This document shows, in pieces, positions 1 to 50,965 of a stretch of 64,000 nt of DNA; position 1 is the stretch's first letter; each line of letters opens with the position of its first letter. Made by a program: the position numbers and the translations under genes. Under the pieces are notes generated by a model, which did no database searches, was not told the DNA's origin, and was given only the letters and a program-made list of their open reading frames with translations. Origin of the DNA: Armatimonadota bacterium (GTDB taxonomy: Bacteria; Armatimonadota; DTGP01; JAKQQT01); NCBI GenBank assembly GCA_036504095.1, contig DASXVS010000048.1, forward strand, positions 1-64,000, in the 5' to 3' direction.

Positions 1-135
1 CGTCGGGTCGTGGCTGTGGCTCTGGCTTCCTTCAGACCCCACCTCGCGGTGACGCCCTTGCCGTCGCTTAACGGTTCCGATTCCCTTTACCGTAGAGGAC
101 TTTCACCTCCGAGAACGGGCGCATGCCCGGCGTAC
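1..135 (-). mobile_element. Group II intron, 5' portion (truncated by window edge)
   Basis: Read on the minus strand from base 135 leftwards, the sequence begins GTACGCCGGGCATGC. It then has GGTGAAAGTCCTCTACGG, GACGGCAAGGGCGTCACC and GGTCTGAAGGAAGCC. These are the domain I landmarks usually found at the 5' end of bacterial group II introns; the normal first bases are GTGCG, here GTACG. The rest of the intron, including any reverse transcriptase ORF, would lie beyond base 1. It starts six bases after a GC-rich hairpin, which is the favoured target type of class C introns. The class is inferred, not shown. Confidence 0.8.
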
Positions 136-959: not shown

Positions 960-3104
960 ATGCGTGAACCTGCCCGAAGATCCGCACATCAAACACGGGC
1001 GCTCCTCTGCGCCGTTATGACCGCCGGCTTGTTCGCCGCAGGCGCCACGCCGGCCACCTGCGCCGCCACGGCGATCGTGAACCCCGACAAATCGTGGGTC
1101 ACGTGGGAAGGCTGGGGGTGCTCCCTGTGCTGGTGGGCCAATCAGTTCGGCCAGCGCGACGACCTGGCCGAAGTGCTGTTCACCAACCATACCACCCGCC
1201 TAACGTCGAGTGTTGGCCCCTATACACTTCCAGGCCTAGGCTTCAACATCGCCCGCTACAACATCGGGGGCACGAGCAGCGCGCCCGCGTTCGGCGAACA
1301 CGCGTCCATCCCCGCTTCCCTGCCGCCGTTCAAACAGATCCAGGGATACTGGCTGGACTGGGGCAGCGCCGATCCCGCGTCCGCAAGTTTCGATTGGTCG
1401 GCGGACGCCAATCAGCGCGCCATGCTTCTCAAAGCCCGCGATCGTGGGGCGGATCGCCTGGAGGCCTTTTCCAACGCGCCTATGTGGTGGATGTGCTACA
1501 ACCATAGCACGGCCGGCAGCGATAGCGGCGGCGACAATCTGCAGTCATGGAACTACGAAACCTTTGCCCGCTACCTGGCCACCGTTACCCGGTATGCGCA
1601 CGATCATTGGGGCGTGGACTTTGAGACCGTTGAGCCGTTCAACGAACCGGCGGCGGGGTGGTGGAAATATCCGGGCGGCCAGGAAAGCTGCCACTTTGAT
1701 ACATCCACCCAGATGCAGGTCATCGCATTCCTCCGCAGCCAGTTGGATGGCCTCGGACTTCAAAACGTCGGGATCAGCGCCTCGGACGAGAACTCCGTAG
1801 ACAGCGCTCTCAACACGTGGAACGCGCTGGCCGGTTCGACCCGAAACCGTATCGCTCGCGTTAACACGCACGGCTACTCCGGGCTGAGCGCCTATCGCGG
1901 GCCGAATCGTTCCGTCCTCTACCAGGCCGTTTCATCCGGCGCAAAACCGCTCTGGATGACCGAATATGGCGAGAGTGACGGCACCGGCCTCACGATGGCG
2001 CAGAGCATCCTGCTCGACATCAACGAAACGCACGCCACGGGATGGGTATACTGGCAGCCACTGGACAGCGGGGGATGGGGACTCATCCAGTCCAACCCCG
2101 GCGACAACTGGATCGGGCCGGCGAACGCCAGGTATTACGTCCTGGCCCAGTTCAGCCGCCACATCCGCCCCGGCATGGCAATTCTGGACAGCGGTGATCC
2201 CGGCTCTGTGGCCGCGTACGACCCGACTGGCCACACATTGGTGATCGTGACAGTAAACGGCCCCACGGGGCGCTGGATGAGCTACGATCTGTCCCGTTTC
2301 CGAAGCGCGGCCGGGCCGGTGACACGATGGACGACCGCCGCCGATGGGAGCGCTTTGTACGTCCGCGGCGCGGATACGGCGCTCAACGGCCTGGCGTTCC
2401 GGTCCTGGTTAGCTCCGAACACGGTGCAGACATTCGAAGTGCGGAACGTATTCCTGAACGCCACCGCGGTGTGGCAGGTCAATGCCGGAGGACCCGCCGT
2501 TGGCCCGGTTGCGGCGGATGCCGGTTTCGCCGGTGGGGCGGTTTCCTCCACGAACGCGCTCATCGACGCGGGCGCTTCCCAGGCGGTACCGCCCGCGGCC
2601 TACAGCAGCGAACGGTACGGCGACTTCCGCTACGTGGCGTCGGGTCTCACACCGGGAGCTGATATGGAGGTGCGCCTTCATTTCGCGGAGATACATTTCA
2701 TCGAGGCCGGCAGGCGGCTATTCAACGTGTGCATCAACGGCGCCCGGGTGCTGACCGATTTCGACGTCTTCACGGAGGCCGGCGGGGCCAATAAAGCTGT
2801 GGTACGGTCATTCCCTGCGAGGGCAGGCAACAACGGGATTATCACGATCGATTTCTCGCGCGGCGCACTCGATCAGCCCACCGTCAGCGCCATCGAGGTG
2901 TGGAGCCGGATGCAGTACATCACCCGGCCGTATACGCTCTCGGATCTGATTCGCGCGGCCAGCATTGCGGACGGCATCACCTTCACGACCGGGGAAGACC
3001 TCGCCCGCTTTGACCTCGTCGGCGGTCTGTCACTGGGAAAGATCGACCTGTCGGACGCCACCCTCGTCGCCCGTAAAGTTGCCGGACTCGAACCCAATCC
3101 GTGA
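960..3104 (+). CDS. Secreted GH30-like glycosidase with malectin-like and dockerin-like C-terminal domains
   Basis: The start at 960 gives a 714-residue protein with a signal peptide (Arg-rich N-terminus, hydrophobic stretch, ATPATCAA cleavage-like site). An earlier in-frame ATG at 819 would put about 47 charged residues before it. Residues 30-500 look like a GH30-type (beta/alpha)8 enzyme with beta sandwich, similar to endo-beta-1,6-galactanases. WEGWGCSLCWWANQFG is the family-like entry motif, VEPFNEP (about residue 228) holds the probable acid/base Glu and MTEYGESD (about 334) the probable nucleophile Glu. Residues about 500-650 (VNAGGPAVGP, then RLHFAEIHF) resemble malectin carbohydrate-binding domains. 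The last 60 residues are a dockerin-like half repeat (KIDLSDATLVARKVAGLEP) also seen at 43100-43160. The substrate is inferred to be a plant galactan and is not certain. Confidence 0.78.
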   Translation: MREPARRSAHQTRALLCAVMTAGLFAAGATPATCAATAIVNPDKSWVTWEGWGCSLCWWANQFGQRDDLAEVLFTNHTTRLTSSVGPYTLPGLGFNIARYNIGGTSSAPAFGEHASIPASLPPFKQIQGYWLDWGSADPASASFDWSADANQRAMLLKARDRGADRLEAFSNAPMWWMCYNHSTAGSDSGGDNLQSWNYETFARYLATVTRYAHDHWGVDFETVEPFNEPAAGWWKYPGGQESCHFDTSTQMQVIAFLRSQLDGLGLQNVGISASDENSVDSALNTWNALAGSTRNRIARVNTHGYSGLSAYRGPNRSVLYQAVSSGAKPLWMTEYGESDGTGLTMAQSILLDINETHATGWVYWQPLDSGGWGLIQSNPGDNWIGPANARYYVLAQFSRHIRPGMAILDSGDPGSVAAYDPTGHTLVIVTVNGPTGRWMSYDLSRFRSAAGPVTRWTTAADGSALYVRGADTALNGLAFRSWLAPNTVQTFEVRNVFLNATAVWQVNAGGPAVGPVAADAGFAGGAVSSTNALIDAGASQAVPPAAYSSERYGDFRYVASGLTPGADMEVRLHFAEIHFIEAGRRLFNVCINGARVLTDFDVFTEAGGANKAVVRSFPARAGNNGIITIDFSRGALDQPTVSAIEVWSRMQYITRPYTLSDLIRAASIADGITFTTGEDLARFDLVGGLSLGKIDLSDATLVARKVAGLEPNP

Positions 3105-3136
3105 GGCCTTCCCCGGGACTGTGCGCACAAGATCGC

Positions 3137-4381
3137 TCAGAACCGTTTGGACACGAACACCCACGGCTGTGGCAACAGCGTTACGCGCGCCTGGTCGGCG
3201 CCGGTGGCCTTCTTCAATAACATGCCCAACGCCCCCACATCGGAGCCGAACAGCGAGTTGAAAGTGAAGACCATCCGCGGGAGGCCGCTTCGGATGCTGT
3301 GGATGAGCTTGAGGTCATCATCCCGCGAAACCGCAGAGCACCGCCCGGCCAGAATGGCCGCCCGCACCGCTTCCACGTTGGGCGCGCAACCCTGCAGCAG
3401 GGTGTAATTCGTGGCAACCATTGCGGGGTCGTGCGCGTCGCTGGCGCCGATGCGCGGCCTGGTGACAGCCGCATAGAAAGCGACGCGCTCCGGCTCCCCG
3501 CGGCGATCGAGGATAAAGTGCAGATCTTCGGCGCCGTTGCATGTTTCCACCGCATCGAACGGCAGCGTGTTCGCCAGCCCCCCCACTCCGTCATCCAGTC
3601 TCGGGTGCGCCGCGATAGCAATCCCCCCTTGCGCGTGGATTTCATCAATGGTGCGGTCTGCTCCCATGCGGGGTGCAATTTCGCGCTTCAGGAACAGCCC
3701 GATGATGTGGCCGTCGGTACTGCTTATCTCCTCCCCGGGGATGACGAAGAACGAAGCCGGAATCTTTCCCTCGCGCACCAGGCGGGGCAGTGCCTCAGCC
3801 GCCTTTCGCGCGCCTTCCATCGTGTTATGGTCTGTGATCGCGATTCCGGCGAGGCCGCGTCGGGCGGCGATACGGATCATCTCGGTGGGGTCGGCCAGTG
3901 AATCGTGACTAAAGCACGTGTGCACATGCGTGTCAACCGCGATTGCGCCGGGCGGCGCATCCACCTTGCCCAGAAGGTCAAGACGGCGCGCGGTGAGCCG
4001 TTTGGCGTACGTCGCGTAGAGGTCGCCCTGCGGTCGGAACAACATTTGTAAGCCATTGCCTCTGCGAAGGAACGGAAGCGCGAGAATGGCTTTGTTGCGC
4101 AAGATATGCCAGTTCGGTTCGTCATCGCCGGGGCGGGAATCGAACAGGCGCTGCAGTTCGTAGAGCGTTGCCTTGCCGTAACTGCCCGTGGAGCCGGAGT
4201 CATCAAGCCCGAACACCAGGGAGGCGGGGCTTCTGCCCGAGGCAATCTGCTCGTCGTACCAGTGCCGTTCGGCTTGCTGAAGCCAGAGGGGGTCATTCAG
4301 GGAAATAAGGGATTGTGCGAAGGATGATTTCGCCATCGCTAACGCGGCAACAGTGACAGCTACCAGTACAACAATTCGCAT
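3137..4381 (-). CDS. Secreted PHP-domain metallophosphoesterase-like protein
   Basis: This is a 414-residue protein. The start at 4381 is chosen because it follows AGGGGG and gives a clean signal peptide (MRIVVLVAVTVAALAMAKSS). From about residue 150 there is a PHP domain: DTHVHTCFSHDS with its metal-binding HxH, GIAITDHNTMEG with its Asp-His, then a Glu-containing PGEEISS stretch and IAAHPRLDD. Such domains bind two or three metals and hydrolyse phosphoesters. The N-terminal 140 residues are unassigned. The substrate is unknown. It lies downstream of the minus-strand deacetylase and glycosyltransferase and may form the end of that cluster, although 80 bases separate them. Confidence 0.75.
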   Translation of the reverse strand: MRIVVLVAVTVAALAMAKSSFAQSLISLNDPLWLQQAERHWYDEQIASGRSPASLVFGLDDSGSTGSYGKATLYELQRLFDSRPGDDEPNWHILRNKAILALPFLRRGNGLQMLFRPQGDLYATYAKRLTARRLDLLGKVDAPPGAIAVDTHVHTCFSHDSLADPTEMIRIAARRGLAGIAITDHNTMEGARKAAEALPRLVREGKIPASFFVIPGEEISSTDGHIIGLFLKREIAPRMGADRTIDEIHAQGGIAIAAHPRLDDGVGGLANTLPFDAVETCNGAEDLHFILDRRGEPERVAFYAAVTRPRIGASDAHDPAMVATNYTLLQGCAPNVEAVRAAILAGRCSAVSRDDDLKLIHSIRSGLPRMVFTFNSLFGSDVGALGMLLKKATGADQARVTLLPQPWVFVSKRF

Positions 4382-23034: not shown

Positions 23035-23086
23035 GACACGTCACTTTGACGTAGCACGACAGAATACCGTCGTGATTTCCCGGTTT

Positions 23087-23256
23087 CCCCACTCGTTCAA
23101 GCTTCAGCACCGCGGACCGTGAGAGAACTAGTCTCAGCCACGTTAGGCAAACCCTTAATCCGGGAGTGCCTGCTACACCCATCGGGCAGCGTCTTTGGAC
23201 GCTACGCCGGGCAGTGGCTTGTGTGTCTCGCGGGAGCCTCGCCAGTCGAGGACCCG
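23087..23256 (-). ncRNA. M-box (ykoK) magnesium riboswitch
   Basis: Read on the minus strand the leader contains GACTGGCGAGGCTCC, then GCCACTGCCC, GCGTCCAAAGACGC, CGATGGGT and finally GGTGCTGAAGCTTGAACGA. In order and spacing these match the conserved segments of M-box RNAs such as Bacillus mgtE: GAGGCTCC, CTGCCC, GTCCAAAGACGC, ATGGGT and GTGCTAAAGCTCTACGA. The size, about 170 nt, also fits. M-boxes bind Mg2+ and switch off magnesium importers when Mg2+ is plentiful. It lies between a good promoter and the Nramp-family gene. Confidence 0.85.
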
Positions 23257-23287
23257 TGGTTTGCCGGCGAACCAGCTTACCTCTACT

Positions 23288-38790: not shown

Positions 38791-39705
38791 ATGAAGTTGT
38801 TGGTTACCATTCTGTTAGGCCTGTCATGTTGCGCGGTAGGCCACGCGGAGTCCACGTGGAAAGACATTGTGGGCGACGGGCCGAAGGTAGAGCGCATCGC
38901 CACGGGTTTCGTGTTCACCGAAGGACCGGTCTGGAGCCCGAAGGGCTACCTGCTGTTCTCCGACGTCCCCGCCGGCATCATCTACAGGTGGACACTCAAA
39001 GCAGGCGCGACCAGATTCCGCGATCCCAGTTACCACAGCAACGGCCTCACGTTCGATCGCCAGGCGCGGCTTCTGGCGTGCGAAAGCGAAGGACGCGTCT
39101 CCCGCACGGAGAAGGACGGCTCGCGCAAGGTCATTGCCGACCGCTATGAGGGGAAGAACCTCAACAGCCCAAACGACATCGTGGTGAAGTCGGGTGGCAG
39201 CATCTACTTCACCGACCCCACTTATGGCCTTACCCCCCCCAACGTACCGGTCGCACGGGCCGCGCAACTCGACTTCCGAGGCGTTTACCGGATCGCGCCC
39301 AACGGAAGCCTCGCCCTCCTTGGCAGGGAATTCGGGCAGCCCAATGGACTCGCCTTTTCGCCGGATGAGAAGCGCCTGTACGTGGATGACTCCGAGCGCA
39401 ACAACATCCGCGTGTTCGATGTAAGGGCGGACGGTACGCTCAGCAACGACCGGGTCTTCGCAACGCCTCGTGAACGGGGCAAGGAGGGCGCGACCGACGG
39501 GATGAAGGTGGACACGAAGGGAAACGTGTACTGCACCGGTCCGGGCGCGGTATGGGTGTACGCGCCATCGGGCACGCTCCTGGGCAAGATTGCCACGCCG
39601 GAAGTGCCGGCCAACTGCGCGTTCGGCGACAAGGACCGCAAGACACTCTATATCACTGCCCGCCATTCGGTATATCGAGTCCGCCTCCGCATCCGGGGGA
39701 TGTGA
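38791..39705 (+). CDS. Secreted SMP-30/gluconolactonase-like beta-propeller
   Basis: This 304-residue protein has a signal peptide (MKLLVTILLGLSCCAVGHA); the start is supported by GAGAGG 8 bases upstream. The six-bladed SMP-30 propeller is seen in GFVFTEGPVWSPKGYLLFSD (metal Glu), FDRQARLLACESEGRVSR, LNSPNDIVVKSGGSIYFTDP (metal Asn), GQPNGLAFSPDEKRLYVDDS and KVDTKGNVYCTGPGAVWVY. Family members hydrolyse sugar lactones using a calcium or zinc ion. It follows the sugar importer and probably works on oxidised sugars outside the cytoplasm. Confidence 0.9.
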   Translation: MKLLVTILLGLSCCAVGHAESTWKDIVGDGPKVERIATGFVFTEGPVWSPKGYLLFSDVPAGIIYRWTLKAGATRFRDPSYHSNGLTFDRQARLLACESEGRVSRTEKDGSRKVIADRYEGKNLNSPNDIVVKSGGSIYFTDPTYGLTPPNVPVARAAQLDFRGVYRIAPNGSLALLGREFGQPNGLAFSPDEKRLYVDDSERNNIRVFDVRADGTLSNDRVFATPRERGKEGATDGMKVDTKGNVYCTGPGAVWVYAPSGTLLGKIATPEVPANCAFGDKDRKTLYITARHSVYRVRLRIRGM

Positions 39706-39712
39706 GAATTGA

Positions 39713-39766
39713 ACCACAAAGGCACAAAGACACAAAGGTCTCTTTGTGCCTTTGTGTCTTTGTGGT
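39713..39766. repeat. Inverted repeat of CACAAAG heptamers overlapping the rnpB promoter
   Basis: A 25-base left arm ACCACAAAG-GCACAAAG-ACACAAAG pairs with the right arm built from CTTTGTG units, ending CTTTGTGGT; two positions mismatch and the loop is GTCT. The right arm supplies the -35 region of the rnpB promoter, with TAAAAT (39766-39771) as -10. Confidence 0.85.
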
Positions 39767-39778
39767 AAAATGCACAGT

Positions 39779-40229
39779 GTGAGCGGGCCGGGCGGCCGCC
39801 GCCCGTAAGGGGGGAGGAAAGTCCGGGCTCCGGAGGGCAGGGCGCTCGGTAACGCCGAGGCATCCGCAGGGATGACGGAAAGCGCCACAGAAAAGGAAAG
39901 GCCTCACCATAGGGCTGAGGGTTCTGGGCTGAGGGCTGAGAGTCTCAGCCTTTGTCCCGCAGCCCTCAGCCCTGTGGTGGGGTTGAGCTGAAACGGTGGT
40001 GTAAGAGACCACCGGCGGCGTGGTGACACGCCGGCCTGGCAAGCCCCGCCCGGAGCAACACCGAATAGGGGGAGAGATCGGGGTAGCCCGCCCCGCCGCC
40101 CTTGCGTGCCGAAAGGCCGCGAGGGGTAATCCCCGGGTCGGAGGCTGGAGGGCGCCGGCAACGGCGCTCCTAGAGAGATGGCCGCCGCCGCGAAAGCGGT
40201 ACAGAACCCGGCTTACAGGCCCGCTCACC
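39779..40229 (+). ncRNA. rnpB: RNase P RNA (bacterial type A), with a repeat inserted in the specificity domain
   Basis: The 5' strand GTGAGCGGGCC (39779-39789) pairs with GGCCCGCTCAC (40218-40228) as P1. The universally conserved GAGGAAAGTCCGGGC is at 39814-39828 and ACAGAACCCGGCTTA at 40201-40215; together they form the P4 region. Other landmarks include GGTAACGCC and GATGACGGAAAGCGCCACAG. At about 451 nt it is longer than usual because a GGGCTGA heptamer inverted repeat (39911-39974) extends what should be the P12 arm. The RNA matures tRNA 5' ends. Confidence 0.96.
39911..39974. repeat. GGGCTGA heptamer inverted repeat inside rnpB
   Basis: GGGCTGA and GGGTTCT-like units on the left face CTCAGCC, GCAGCCCTCAGCCCT on the right. 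The same word family occurs at 51840-51860 and 56064-56136. In rnpB it would lengthen a helix in the specificity domain without touching the conserved core. Confidence 0.85.
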
Positions 40230-40230
40230 T

Positions 40231-40262
40231 GATGTTGGATGGTGGAAGTTGGAGGTTGGATT
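40231..40262. repeat. GTTGGAT heptamer repeat after rnpB
   Basis: From 40234 the units GTTGGAT, GGTGGAA, GTTGGAG and GTTGGAT follow the RNase P 3' end. The first 20 bases of this stretch are also copied at 40755-40774. Confidence 0.7.
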
Positions 40263-40277
40263 GAGGGAGGAACACGA

Positions 40278-40478
40278 GTGAACTGGAGAGTCGTGCTGGA
40301 ACGGGACGAGGAGACCTCGGACTGGGCGGCGTGGTGCCCTGAATTGCCGGGCTGCACTTCTGCCGGCGAGACCGAAACCGAAGCGCTCCAAAGCATCCGC
40401 GAAGCGATCCAGCTCTATCTGGAGCCTGAACCCATCAAGTTGGCCGAGGGGGCTTCGGTGTGCCAGGTAACGGTCTGA
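40278..40478 (+). CDS. hicB: HicB-family antitoxin
   Basis: A GTG start at 40278 with GGGAGG upstream gives 66 residues. NWRVVLERDEETSDWAAWCP, ELPGCTSAGETETEALQSIR and EAIQLYLEPEP are the partial-RNase-H-like HicB core (P-x-LPG-C-x-S-x-G-x-T-x-x-E-A). It is short and lacks a separate DNA-binding domain. Its TGA overlaps the hicA ATG (TGATG). HicB neutralises the HicA mRNA interferase. The module sits immediately after rnpB and is bracketed by the duplicated rnpB tail. Confidence 0.92.
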   Translation: MNWRVVLERDEETSDWAAWCPELPGCTSAGETETEALQSIREAIQLYLEPEPIKLAEGASVCQVTV

Positions 40479-40702
40479 TGCCAGACAGGCCGGACCGCTT
40501 GAACGCCAAGCAGGTCGAAGACGTTCTTGCCCGGAATGGTTTTCGCCTGGTGTCACAAAGGGGAAGCCATAGGAAGTGGCGCCACGATGCGCAGCGTTCC
40601 CAGGTCATCGTTCCCGACCATCGCGGACGCGATCTGCCTATAGGCACGCTTCGAGCGATTCAGTCCGCCTCCGGTATTGCAGCAGACGAGTGGCACCGGT
40701 GA
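40478..40702 (+). CDS. hicA: HicA-family mRNA interferase toxin
   Basis: This 74-residue protein starts at 40478, overlapping the hicB stop. The double-stranded-RNA-binding-like HicA fold is plain: LNAKQVEDVLARNGFRLVSQ, then RGSHRKWRHDAQRSQVIVPD with the catalytic His in GSHRKW, then HRGRDLPIGTLRAIQSASGI. HicA cleaves mRNA and tmRNA when not bound by HicB. The gene ends 22 bases before the exact 50-nt copy of the rnpB 3' end. Confidence 0.94.
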   Translation: MPDRPDRLNAKQVEDVLARNGFRLVSQRGSHRKWRHDAQRSQVIVPDHRGRDLPIGTLRAIQSASGIAADEWHR

Positions 40703-40774
40703 TGGTTGCCGCCGCGTAAAGGTGGCACAGAACCCGGCTTACAGGCCCGCTCACCTGATGTTGGATGGTGGAAG
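40699..40774 (+). repeat. Partial duplicate of the rnpB 3' end
   Basis: Bases 40725-40774 are identical over 50 nt to 40201-40250 (RNase P 3' strand plus the start of the heptamer tail). Upstream, 40699-40724 is similar to 40177-40200 with a few differences. The two copies are in direct orientation, 524 bases apart, and enclose hicBA. This looks like an attachment-site or target duplication. Confidence 0.93.
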
Positions 40775-40823
40775 TTTGACTCCGGCGCCTGGCGCCCGAC
40801 ACCTGGCCCCCCCCACCCCACGT

Positions 40824-40860
40824 AAAGAAGGCCTGCCCAATGGATGGACAGGCCTTCTTC
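40824..40860 (-). terminator. Terminator of the PEP-CTERM gene
   Basis: On the minus strand GAAGGCCTG and CAGGCCTTC (40857-40849 with 40835-40827) form a 9-bp stem followed by TTTACG. It lies 36 bases past the stop of the gene at 40896-41477. Confidence 0.75.
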
Positions 40861-40895
40861 AACTTGAAGTCGCCCTTGGCTCCGCTTCGGCGGGC

Positions 40896-41477
40896 CTACT
40901 TGCGGCGGCGGATCAGGCCGAGCAGGGGCAGGATGCCCACGCCCAACAGGCTCGCGGAAGCCGGCTCGGGAACGGCGGAGACATGCGCGCCGATCGCGCC
41001 AAGGCTGCCGCCCGGCGCTTCAGGCGCCGTGTATGTGGTCAGATCGACGACGTACTTGTTCAGGCCAAGGTCGACGGTGTAGTGGGTCGCGCCGGTGAAT
41101 GTGTTTCCGATGTTGGCGGAACCGACCGACGTGGTGCCCTTAAGAACGCCGGAAAACAGCAGATCGGCGGAGGCGCTGCTGGCATCGTCGGTCAAGGTCA
41201 TCGTGATCTCATACGGATTATCGAAGGTGTCAGGCGCCAGGTCCGGGGCGCTGCTTGTGACTCGGAGGTTCGAGAGAACCACATCGGTTCCGATCGTGCC
41301 GGCAAACTTGTGGATGTTGGCGCCCGGAATGAAAGTAATTGCGCTCATTCCGCTCGACATCGTGTTGCCCGGCAGGTTCGTGGTTTCAAAATGAGAGAAA
41401 TACACTTGAGCCTGCGACGTGCCCGCGATGAGCAAGCTCAGACCAGCGCCCAGTAGACAGGTCTTAAGAAGCTTCAT
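40896..41477 (-). CDS. PEP-CTERM sorted secreted protein
   Basis: The start at 41477 (MKLLKTCLLGAGLSLLIAGT) gives a signal peptide and 193 residues. The C-terminus is a PEP-CTERM sorting tail: VPEPASASLLGVGILPLLGL followed by IRRRK, which an exosortase would process. The 150 residues between are Thr/Ser/Asn-rich and beta-like (NTFTGATHYTVDLGLNKYVV), without recognised motifs. Such proteins are exported and often associated with extracellular matrix. No exosortase gene is in this window. Confidence 0.85.
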   Translation of the reverse strand: MKLLKTCLLGAGLSLLIAGTSQAQVYFSHFETTNLPGNTMSSGMSAITFIPGANIHKFAGTIGTDVVLSNLRVTSSAPDLAPDTFDNPYEITMTLTDDASSASADLLFSGVLKGTTSVGSANIGNTFTGATHYTVDLGLNKYVVDLTTYTAPEAPGGSLGAIGAHVSAVPEPASASLLGVGILPLLGLIRRRK

Positions 41478-50293: not shown

Positions 50294-50965
50294 ATGGCGA
50301 ATCAGGAGCAGATCGACCGACTACTTCGCGGCGTAAGCGAATGGAATGCGTGGCGGGAAACGAACCCGGCGCAGTCGGTGGATATCAGTGGCGCCGATCT
50401 CAGCGCGGAAGACCTCGCAGGGGCGAACCTCAGCGAAGCGAACTGCAGCGGAGCCGACTTCAGCGATGCGGACCTTGAAGGGGCGAACCTCTCCGGAGCG
50501 AATTGCAGTGGAGCCGACCTCAGCGGTGCGGACCTTGAAGGGGCTAACCTCTCCGGAGCGAATTGCAGTGGAGCCGACCTCAGCGGTGCGGACCTCGAAG
50601 GGGCGAACCTCTCCGGAGCGAACTGCAGCGGAGCCGACTTCAGCGGTGCGGACCTCGAAGGGGTGAACCTCTCCGAAGCCAACTGCAGCGGAGCCGACCT
50701 CAGCGGTGCGGACCTCGAAGGGGCGAACCTCTCCGGAGCCAACTGCAGCGGAGCCGACCTCAGCGGGTCTGACCTGGAACGAGCGAACCTTACCAACGCT
50801 AATTTCAGTGGCGCGGACTTGGGCGGTGCGGACTTTGAAGGGGCCAACCTCACCGGAGCCAACCTCAGCGGCGCGGACCTCGAAGGGGCGAACCTCTCCG
50901 GAGCGAATTGCAGTGGAGCCGACCTCAGCGGCACCGAACTCAGCGGGCTGACGGGGTCATCCTGA
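50294..50965 (+). CDS. Pentapeptide-repeat protein
   Basis: This 223-residue protein starts after TTTGGAGGGAG. After 30 residues it consists of about 37 pentapeptides of the type A(D/N)LxG: SGADLEGANLSGANCSGADL repeats almost unchanged. Four pentapeptides make one 60-bp DNA unit. The Cys at every fourth repeat (GANCSGA) gives a regular cysteine ladder on one face. Such proteins fold as a right-handed quadrilateral beta-helix, some of which mimic DNA and protect gyrase. No gyrase-specific features are visible, so function is open. Confidence 0.92.
   Translation: MANQEQIDRLLRGVSEWNAWRETNPAQSVDISGADLSAEDLAGANLSEANCSGADFSDADLEGANLSGANCSGADLSGADLEGANLSGANCSGADLSGADLEGANLSGANCSGADFSGADLEGVNLSEANCSGADLSGADLEGANLSGANCSGADLSGSDLERANLTNANFSGADLGGADFEGANLTGANLSGADLEGANLSGANCSGADLSGTELSGLTGSS
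50441..50800 (+). repeat. Six near-identical 60-bp tandem units in the pentapeptide gene
   Basis: Units start at 50441, 50501, 50561, 50621, 50681 and 50741 and differ at only a few bases each (for example AATTGCAGT versus AACTGCAGC). A further partial unit lies at 50881-50935. The homogeneity points to recent expansion by unequal recombination or slippage. Confidence 0.92.

Follow-up and report, generated by a model that had tools for sequence, protein, structure and literature searches.

Some restriction-modification (RM) systems duplicate a long stretch of the target when they insert into a genome, its length varying around 100 bp, as described in passages of a review (PMC3874152) that cite Nobusato et al. 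2000 and Furuta et al. 2010. According to the same passages, a toxin-antidote module stands alone between the two target copies, transposase and integrase are both absent, and the targets are varied. A second relevant system is the cis-mobilizable element (CIME), presented in part of another paper (PMC5704250), in which repeats of the attL/attR type lie at a gene end, the target is restored and integration genes are lacking. The locus described here, a hicBA toxin-antitoxin module placed between the 3′ end of the RNase P RNA gene rnpB and a second copy of that end, shares these properties with both systems. Unlike the RM insertions, its module is hicBA, the targets of this module and its analogues are mostly ends of co-directional genes, and one target is a structural RNA gene. 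Unlike a CIME, the unit measures only about 524 bp and carries nothing except the toxin-antitoxin pair; moreover, the loci examined yielded neither a related integrase nor an element sharing its core.

The locus lies in a stretch of 64,000 nucleotides (hereafter the window) on contig C48 of an Armatimonadota genome, G000. Its features, in window coordinates, are the following.

39780..40231, plus strand: rnpB, a complete class A RNase P RNA gene, completed by copy 1 (RF00010, 226.6 bits, model positions 1-367).
40177..40253, plus strand: copy 1, the rnpB 3′ end and its tail, with the exact core at 40201-40250 and, upstream of the core, hairpin P18 with a GAAA loop.
40244..40260, plus strand: a dispersed micro-repeat into which copy 1 runs, present at 16 places in the genome at no more than one mismatch.
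40278..40478, plus strand: hicB, predicted antitoxin of 66 aa with a GTG start (PF15919, 1.1e-8), full length in comparison with 12 related loci.
40478..40702, plus strand: hicA, predicted toxin of 74 aa, its ATG start overlapping the hicB stop (PF07927, 1.6e-17 for a longer reading from 40460).
40701..40779, plus strand: copy 2, the rnpB 3′ end again, with the exact core at 40727-40776 and, upstream of the core, an alternative P18 hairpin of 7 bp and 7 nt.
40825..40859, no strand assigned: a strong hairpin 3′ of copy 2 (inverted repeat, fold z -4.1).

An earlier note on this DNA had reported an exact 50-nt copy of the rnpB end. The copy is real, and 40201-40250 is identical to 40727-40776; the second position had been given 2 nt too low, as 40725-40774. 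The expected number of identical 50-nt pairs in 64 kb is about 3e-20, which excludes a chance origin. Around this core the similarity extends imperfectly to 40177-40253 and 40701-40779 (77 and 79 nt, 90% identity). The weaker similarity over some 24 bases upstream of the core, also pointed out earlier, was found as well: the first 24-26 nt of the repeat differ by five substitutions and a 2-nt insertion, whereas the next 50 nt show no difference (Fisher p = 0.0026). This variable part is the region of hairpin P18. At its other end the copy 1 tail runs into the intact dispersed micro-repeat, for which a reversed-pattern control matched no place in the genome, and copy 2 breaks off inside it. Infernal places a 22-bit rnpB fragment at 40687-40757, overlapping copy 2. 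All remaining exact direct repeats of at least 30 nt in the window come from one tandem array at 50.4-50.9 kb. This array (50386-50931; 60 bp, 8.3 copies) is within a reading frame, presumably one of pentapeptide repeats. Other features of the window include an M-box magnesium riboswitch (23081-23257, minus strand), a group II intron end where the window begins (1-53, minus strand) and palindromic dispersed micro-repeats, one forming a hairpin at 39712-39770 just 5′ of rnpB (z -9.7) and another lying inside rnpB at 39902-39982. The hairpin at 40825-40859 is possibly the original rnpB end region, or else a terminator common to a convergent gene; the terminator scan did not call it.

Between the two copies there are only hicB and hicA, just as had been noticed at first sight; both are intact. 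The pair has the features of a type II HicBA system: HicA (PF07927) adjoins HicB (PF15919), and the genes overlap by TGATG. The hicA start at 40478 was picked from the sequence, and the Pfam score belongs to the reading from 40460. NCBIfam gave no match for either protein. HicB is 59-71% identical to the HicB of 12 other Armatimonadota loci and is full length for its subfamily; the HicA of these 12 loci is 50-58% identical to that of the window, and their HicB is also full length. A consensus scan of 39400-41000 found no sigma-70-like promoter (other promoter types are outside its coverage) and called nothing resembling a terminator in the rnpB-hicB interval, so that, judged from sequence, hicBA may be transcribed together with rnpB. 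Relatives of HicA are widespread in the phylum, being present in 96 of 291 genomes, and a search for viral relatives gave no lead. We also considered whether hicBA is simply a constant neighbor of rnpB; this was rejected, since an Rfam search of the 12 hicA loci nearest in sequence revealed no RNA gene. ARAGORN found a tRNA at one of 29 hicA loci.

The nearest relative, G001 (Armatimonadota MAG record JAKQQT010000592.1), is of the same family but another genus. It has a single rnpB 3′ end with no hicBA beside the gene, and its neighbors are different, with no synteny. In a pattern scan of public genomes for the window-type rnpB end, G001 was the sole match. Across the phylum, the rnpB 3′-end pattern matched in 166 of 291 genomes, and two such ends were found in G000 alone; a scan allowing two mismatches was too noisy for use. 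The arrangement that the earlier note had named as fatal to its reading, namely both copies without hicBA, was not seen among the genomes compared, which include no syntenic relative and hence no true empty site for rnpB.

An initial look at 30 HicA loci, including the window, showed significant flanking repeats in six. We then scored 70 loci, the first 30 among them, for direct repeats that flank HicA within 900 nt and reach 40 bits or more, a rule set after those six of 30 had been seen. The loci were taken in list order, most places with in-frame stops or fragments being omitted, and many listed places are outside the sample. Repeats were present at 11 of the 70 HicA loci, compared with 3 of the 266 positions that served as controls within these loci (p = 3.5e-6), and at 5 of the 40 loci fetched solely for the test (p = 0.0013). 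Seven of the 11 positives are gene-end duplications, representing five independent sites. After collapsing to sites the comparison becomes 5/68 versus 3/266 (p = 0.010). Among the 40 later loci there are three gene-end cases (p = 0.031), or 2/39 when collapsed (p = 0.12). At the level of events, therefore, the statistics for a repeat excess at HicA are modest. As to the other positives, L164, L186 and L191 are self-duplications of hicB or of the hicBA promoter, and L201 is of uncertain kind; 59 of the 70 modules have no flanking repeat. One of the control positives, L197, contains a 218-nt direct repeat (2092-2309 and 2991-3208, 84% identity) around a reading frame that we take to be HEPN-like; perhaps this is another toxin module with a duplicated target.

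The five gene-end sites are listed below.

Site 1: rnpB 3′ end, in the window (77/79 nt, 90% identity).
Site 2: ahcY 3′ end, L058/L198 (152 nt, 93%).
Site 3: 3′ end of a 3-keto-disaccharide hydrolase gene, orthologous loci L176 (160 nt, 92.5%) and L187 (100 nt, 95%).
Site 4: dnaX 5′ end, L200.
Site 5: 3′ end of a gene that we take to be RHS-like (no Pfam match), orthologous loci L173 and L076.

At all five sites the module is co-directional with the duplicated gene, and the window's rnpB is the sole structural RNA gene among them. Copy 2 begins at -2, 10, 23, 34 and about 100 nt after hicA (rnpB, ahcY, hydrolase and dnaX sites); in the window its start falls within the hicA stop codon. The ahcY site, which is one of the 12 closest HicA loci, reads ahcY 3′ end, hicB, hicA and a second ahcY 3′ end. 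In the congener G150, ahcY has a single 3′ end, the 6 kb examined contain no HicA match, and synteny downstream of ahcY is lost. At the dnaX site, the congener G283 (L221, G283:C18:36500-46500) has four partial dnaX starts together with hicA and hicB fragments over about 4 kb, in addition to an intact dnaX that follows hicA. This pattern was apparently left by repeated gain or amplification of the duplication.

The same module kind is thus found within gene-end duplications at five independent sites, in seven of the 70 loci, and in the window a direct repeat of the ~100-nt class surrounds a module that stands alone, with no recombinase. Two copies of the rnpB end, an intact rnpB, an intact module alone between the copies and the same layout at four other unrelated genes are what we observe. 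We consider it slightly better than an even bet that a complete hicBA cassette became inserted at the rnpB 3′ end, leaving the duplicated gene end on its far side, as an insertion with long target duplication. The main reason to prefer this explanation to an element with an attachment site is that the repeat follows hicBA to different genes: a single integrase specific for rnpB fails to explain the signature at different genes, and an insertion with long target duplication does explain it. Against it stand the modest event-level statistics, the 59 modules that lack a repeat, the self-duplications among the positives and the lost synteny in G150. Two further points are that RHS genes are repetitive in any case, and that integrases use rnpB as a target in other bacteria, whence the cause at the window locus may differ from that at its analogues.

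This second point deserves closer attention. Four scans of viral contigs (IMG/VR) with rnpB 3′-end patterns returned 49 stretches (25, 13, 3 and 8). Many of these hold complete rnpB genes carried by phages, several of them within arrays of tRNA genes, and a few matches resemble coding sequence. In L092, L100, L124 and L135 a Phage_integrase gene lies no more than about 150 nt beyond the rnpB end, and in L107 the integrase adjoins an rnpB fragment that begins at P18. An rnpB 3′ end with no RF00010 match at the gathering score was found in L098, L126, L127, L128, L133 and L136. L127 and L135 come from opposite ends of a single 41.7-kb contig, evidently a provirus, and their rnpB ends lie about 39.5 kb apart. 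The earlier suggestion to look for other elements at rnpB was thus borne out by viral contigs with an rnpB end and a tyrosine integrase, one of them a provirus with an rnpB end at both borders. Entry of an element into the rnpB 3′ end, with restoration of the gene, is a real mode of integration in other bacteria. No report of integration at rnpB emerged from our literature searches; the papers examined mention rnpB or RNase P RNA with other meanings. With the rnpB 3′ end used by phage integrases, a structural RNA gene joins the tRNA genes and protein genes that the review passages list as targets. Complete RNase P RNA genes are also carried by the viral contigs L043, L044, L088/L097, L093, L096, L101, L103 and L106, most of them within tRNA arrays. 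MT835553 and MT836823, filed as phage, were set aside: they contain complete rnpB genes and look like host DNA. BLAST searches of phages and plasmids with rnpB ends, and a search of viral contigs for the E. coli-type rnpB end, gave no lead.

The contigs with an integrase beside an rnpB end lend weight to a different origin of the window's repeat. Here hicBA might have arrived as cargo of a tyrosine-integrase element (phage, satellite or mobilizable island) whose target was the rnpB 3′ end. The 50-nt core would then be attL and attR. Later deletion of the integrase and most of the cargo would have left a CIME-like unit, still excisable by a related integrase. In the viral contigs L092, L100, L107, L124 and L127/L135, as in the window, the repeated core covers the rnpB 3′ end, starting at or near the ACAGAA box. 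The two ends in L127/L135 share 25 identical nt beginning 6 nt before this box, at which the window's exact core begins. Copy 2 and the L107 fragment are also alike in having a 7-bp stem and a 7-nt spacer adjoining the core. The internal differences between the two copies find a parallel in published att pairs (PMC10763512, PMC10383233): the 79/90-bp pair of Tn7088 shows 12 changes and 11 inserted nt, and that of Tn7089 shows 4 changes in 52 bp. On the other side, the rnpB proviruses have a tyrosine integrase and other phage genes and come from other hosts, whereas the window unit has a mere 524 bp or so. The recombinase signature is absent from the window and PF00589 has no match on contig C48, in agreement with the first impression that no integrase is present. 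The 11 integrase matches of G000 are all elsewhere in the genome, and no core matching the 50-nt repeat was found in five of its integrase loci and three stretches of integrase-bearing contigs; these loci give no support to mobilization in trans, one of the options raised earlier. Furthermore, a second rnpB end exists in G000 alone among the matched genomes, and the same hicBA layout occurs at protein genes with different repeats. We regard the remnant of such an element as a serious but rather unlikely origin. Xer-like recombinases near rnpB, seen in L014 and L016 (2 of 34 loci scanned), were also considered; they are best read as XerC/D, below cut-offs, and no second rnpB end accompanies them. 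In short, the earlier idea of a mobile unit entering the 3′ end of an RNA gene is upheld as a mode of integration by the viral contigs, and it agrees with G001, which lacks hicBA and a second copy at rnpB. It stands less well for this locus, where the repeat seems to follow hicBA rather than rnpB.

In E. coli K-12 (L087), rnpB is followed by a tandem array of a 113-bp unit in 3.5 copies that holds the rnpB 3′ end and no toxin genes. The array resembles the window in placing further copies of the rnpB 3′ end, from near P18 onward, downstream of the gene; it differs in that the units are in tandem and without a cargo gene. It shows that rnpB ends can duplicate without any cargo gene. The rnpB 3′ end in the window could likewise have been duplicated in tandem by slippage or unequal exchange, with hicBA trapped later between the copies. 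The way in which copy 2 ends within the micro-repeat is relevant here, and a truncated duplicate fits it at least as well as an inserted end does. Nevertheless, we consider a duplication that preceded the module improbable. First, hicBA fills the interval exactly, down to the start of copy 2 in the hicA stop codon. Second, flanking repeats are enriched at HicA loci. Third, the two copies differ toward one end alone, unlike the spread-out decay of an old duplicate. Fourth, copy 2 retains an alternative perfect hairpin.

The last of these observations concerns P18, whose loop has a tetraloop role in RNase P RNA. In copy 2 the GAAA loop is replaced by a 7-nt loop on a perfect 7-bp stem (fold z -2.1). 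Random decay would tend to disrupt the stem. A 7-nt loop on a long P18 stem was not found in the rnpB of 28 relatives folded alike, and no donor of this allele was found: it is seen solely in G000 among the 291 genomes of the phylum. At the hydrolase site, the copies in L176 show an excess of synonymous differences (7/12, P = 0.0095), which is not significant in the other three coding repeat pairs. The synonymous excess in L176 and the alternative perfect stem of copy 2 are both as would be expected of alleles of two genes.

An insertion with long target duplication could have produced this outcome as follows. The incoming DNA would have carried a gene end beside hicBA, which paired with the resident gene end; the opposite side of the incoming DNA would have been attached by an illegitimate junction a little upstream of that resident end. 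Such a route is homology-facilitated illegitimate recombination. The duplication would thus have arisen together with the insertion, one copy completing rnpB and the other being left behind. In its present place hicBA would be read with rnpB. Recombination between the copies would remove the module and restore rnpB, a loss that the toxin would oppose. More generally, hicBA cassettes might be minimal mobile units without transposase or integrase that repeatedly enter beside the ends of housekeeping genes, duplicate about 60-160 nt of the end, take a gene-directed orientation that borrows transcription, and are kept by addiction. We offer this generalization tentatively and think it doubtful in its full form.

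The locus bears on how small toxin-antitoxin pairs spread without a carrier mobile element. If hicBA is repeatedly bracketed by long gene-end duplications, these would provide a readable signature of insertion, and its rate, targets and donors could be counted in genomes. In that case, toxin-antitoxin modules would share a mode of mobility described for restriction-modification systems.
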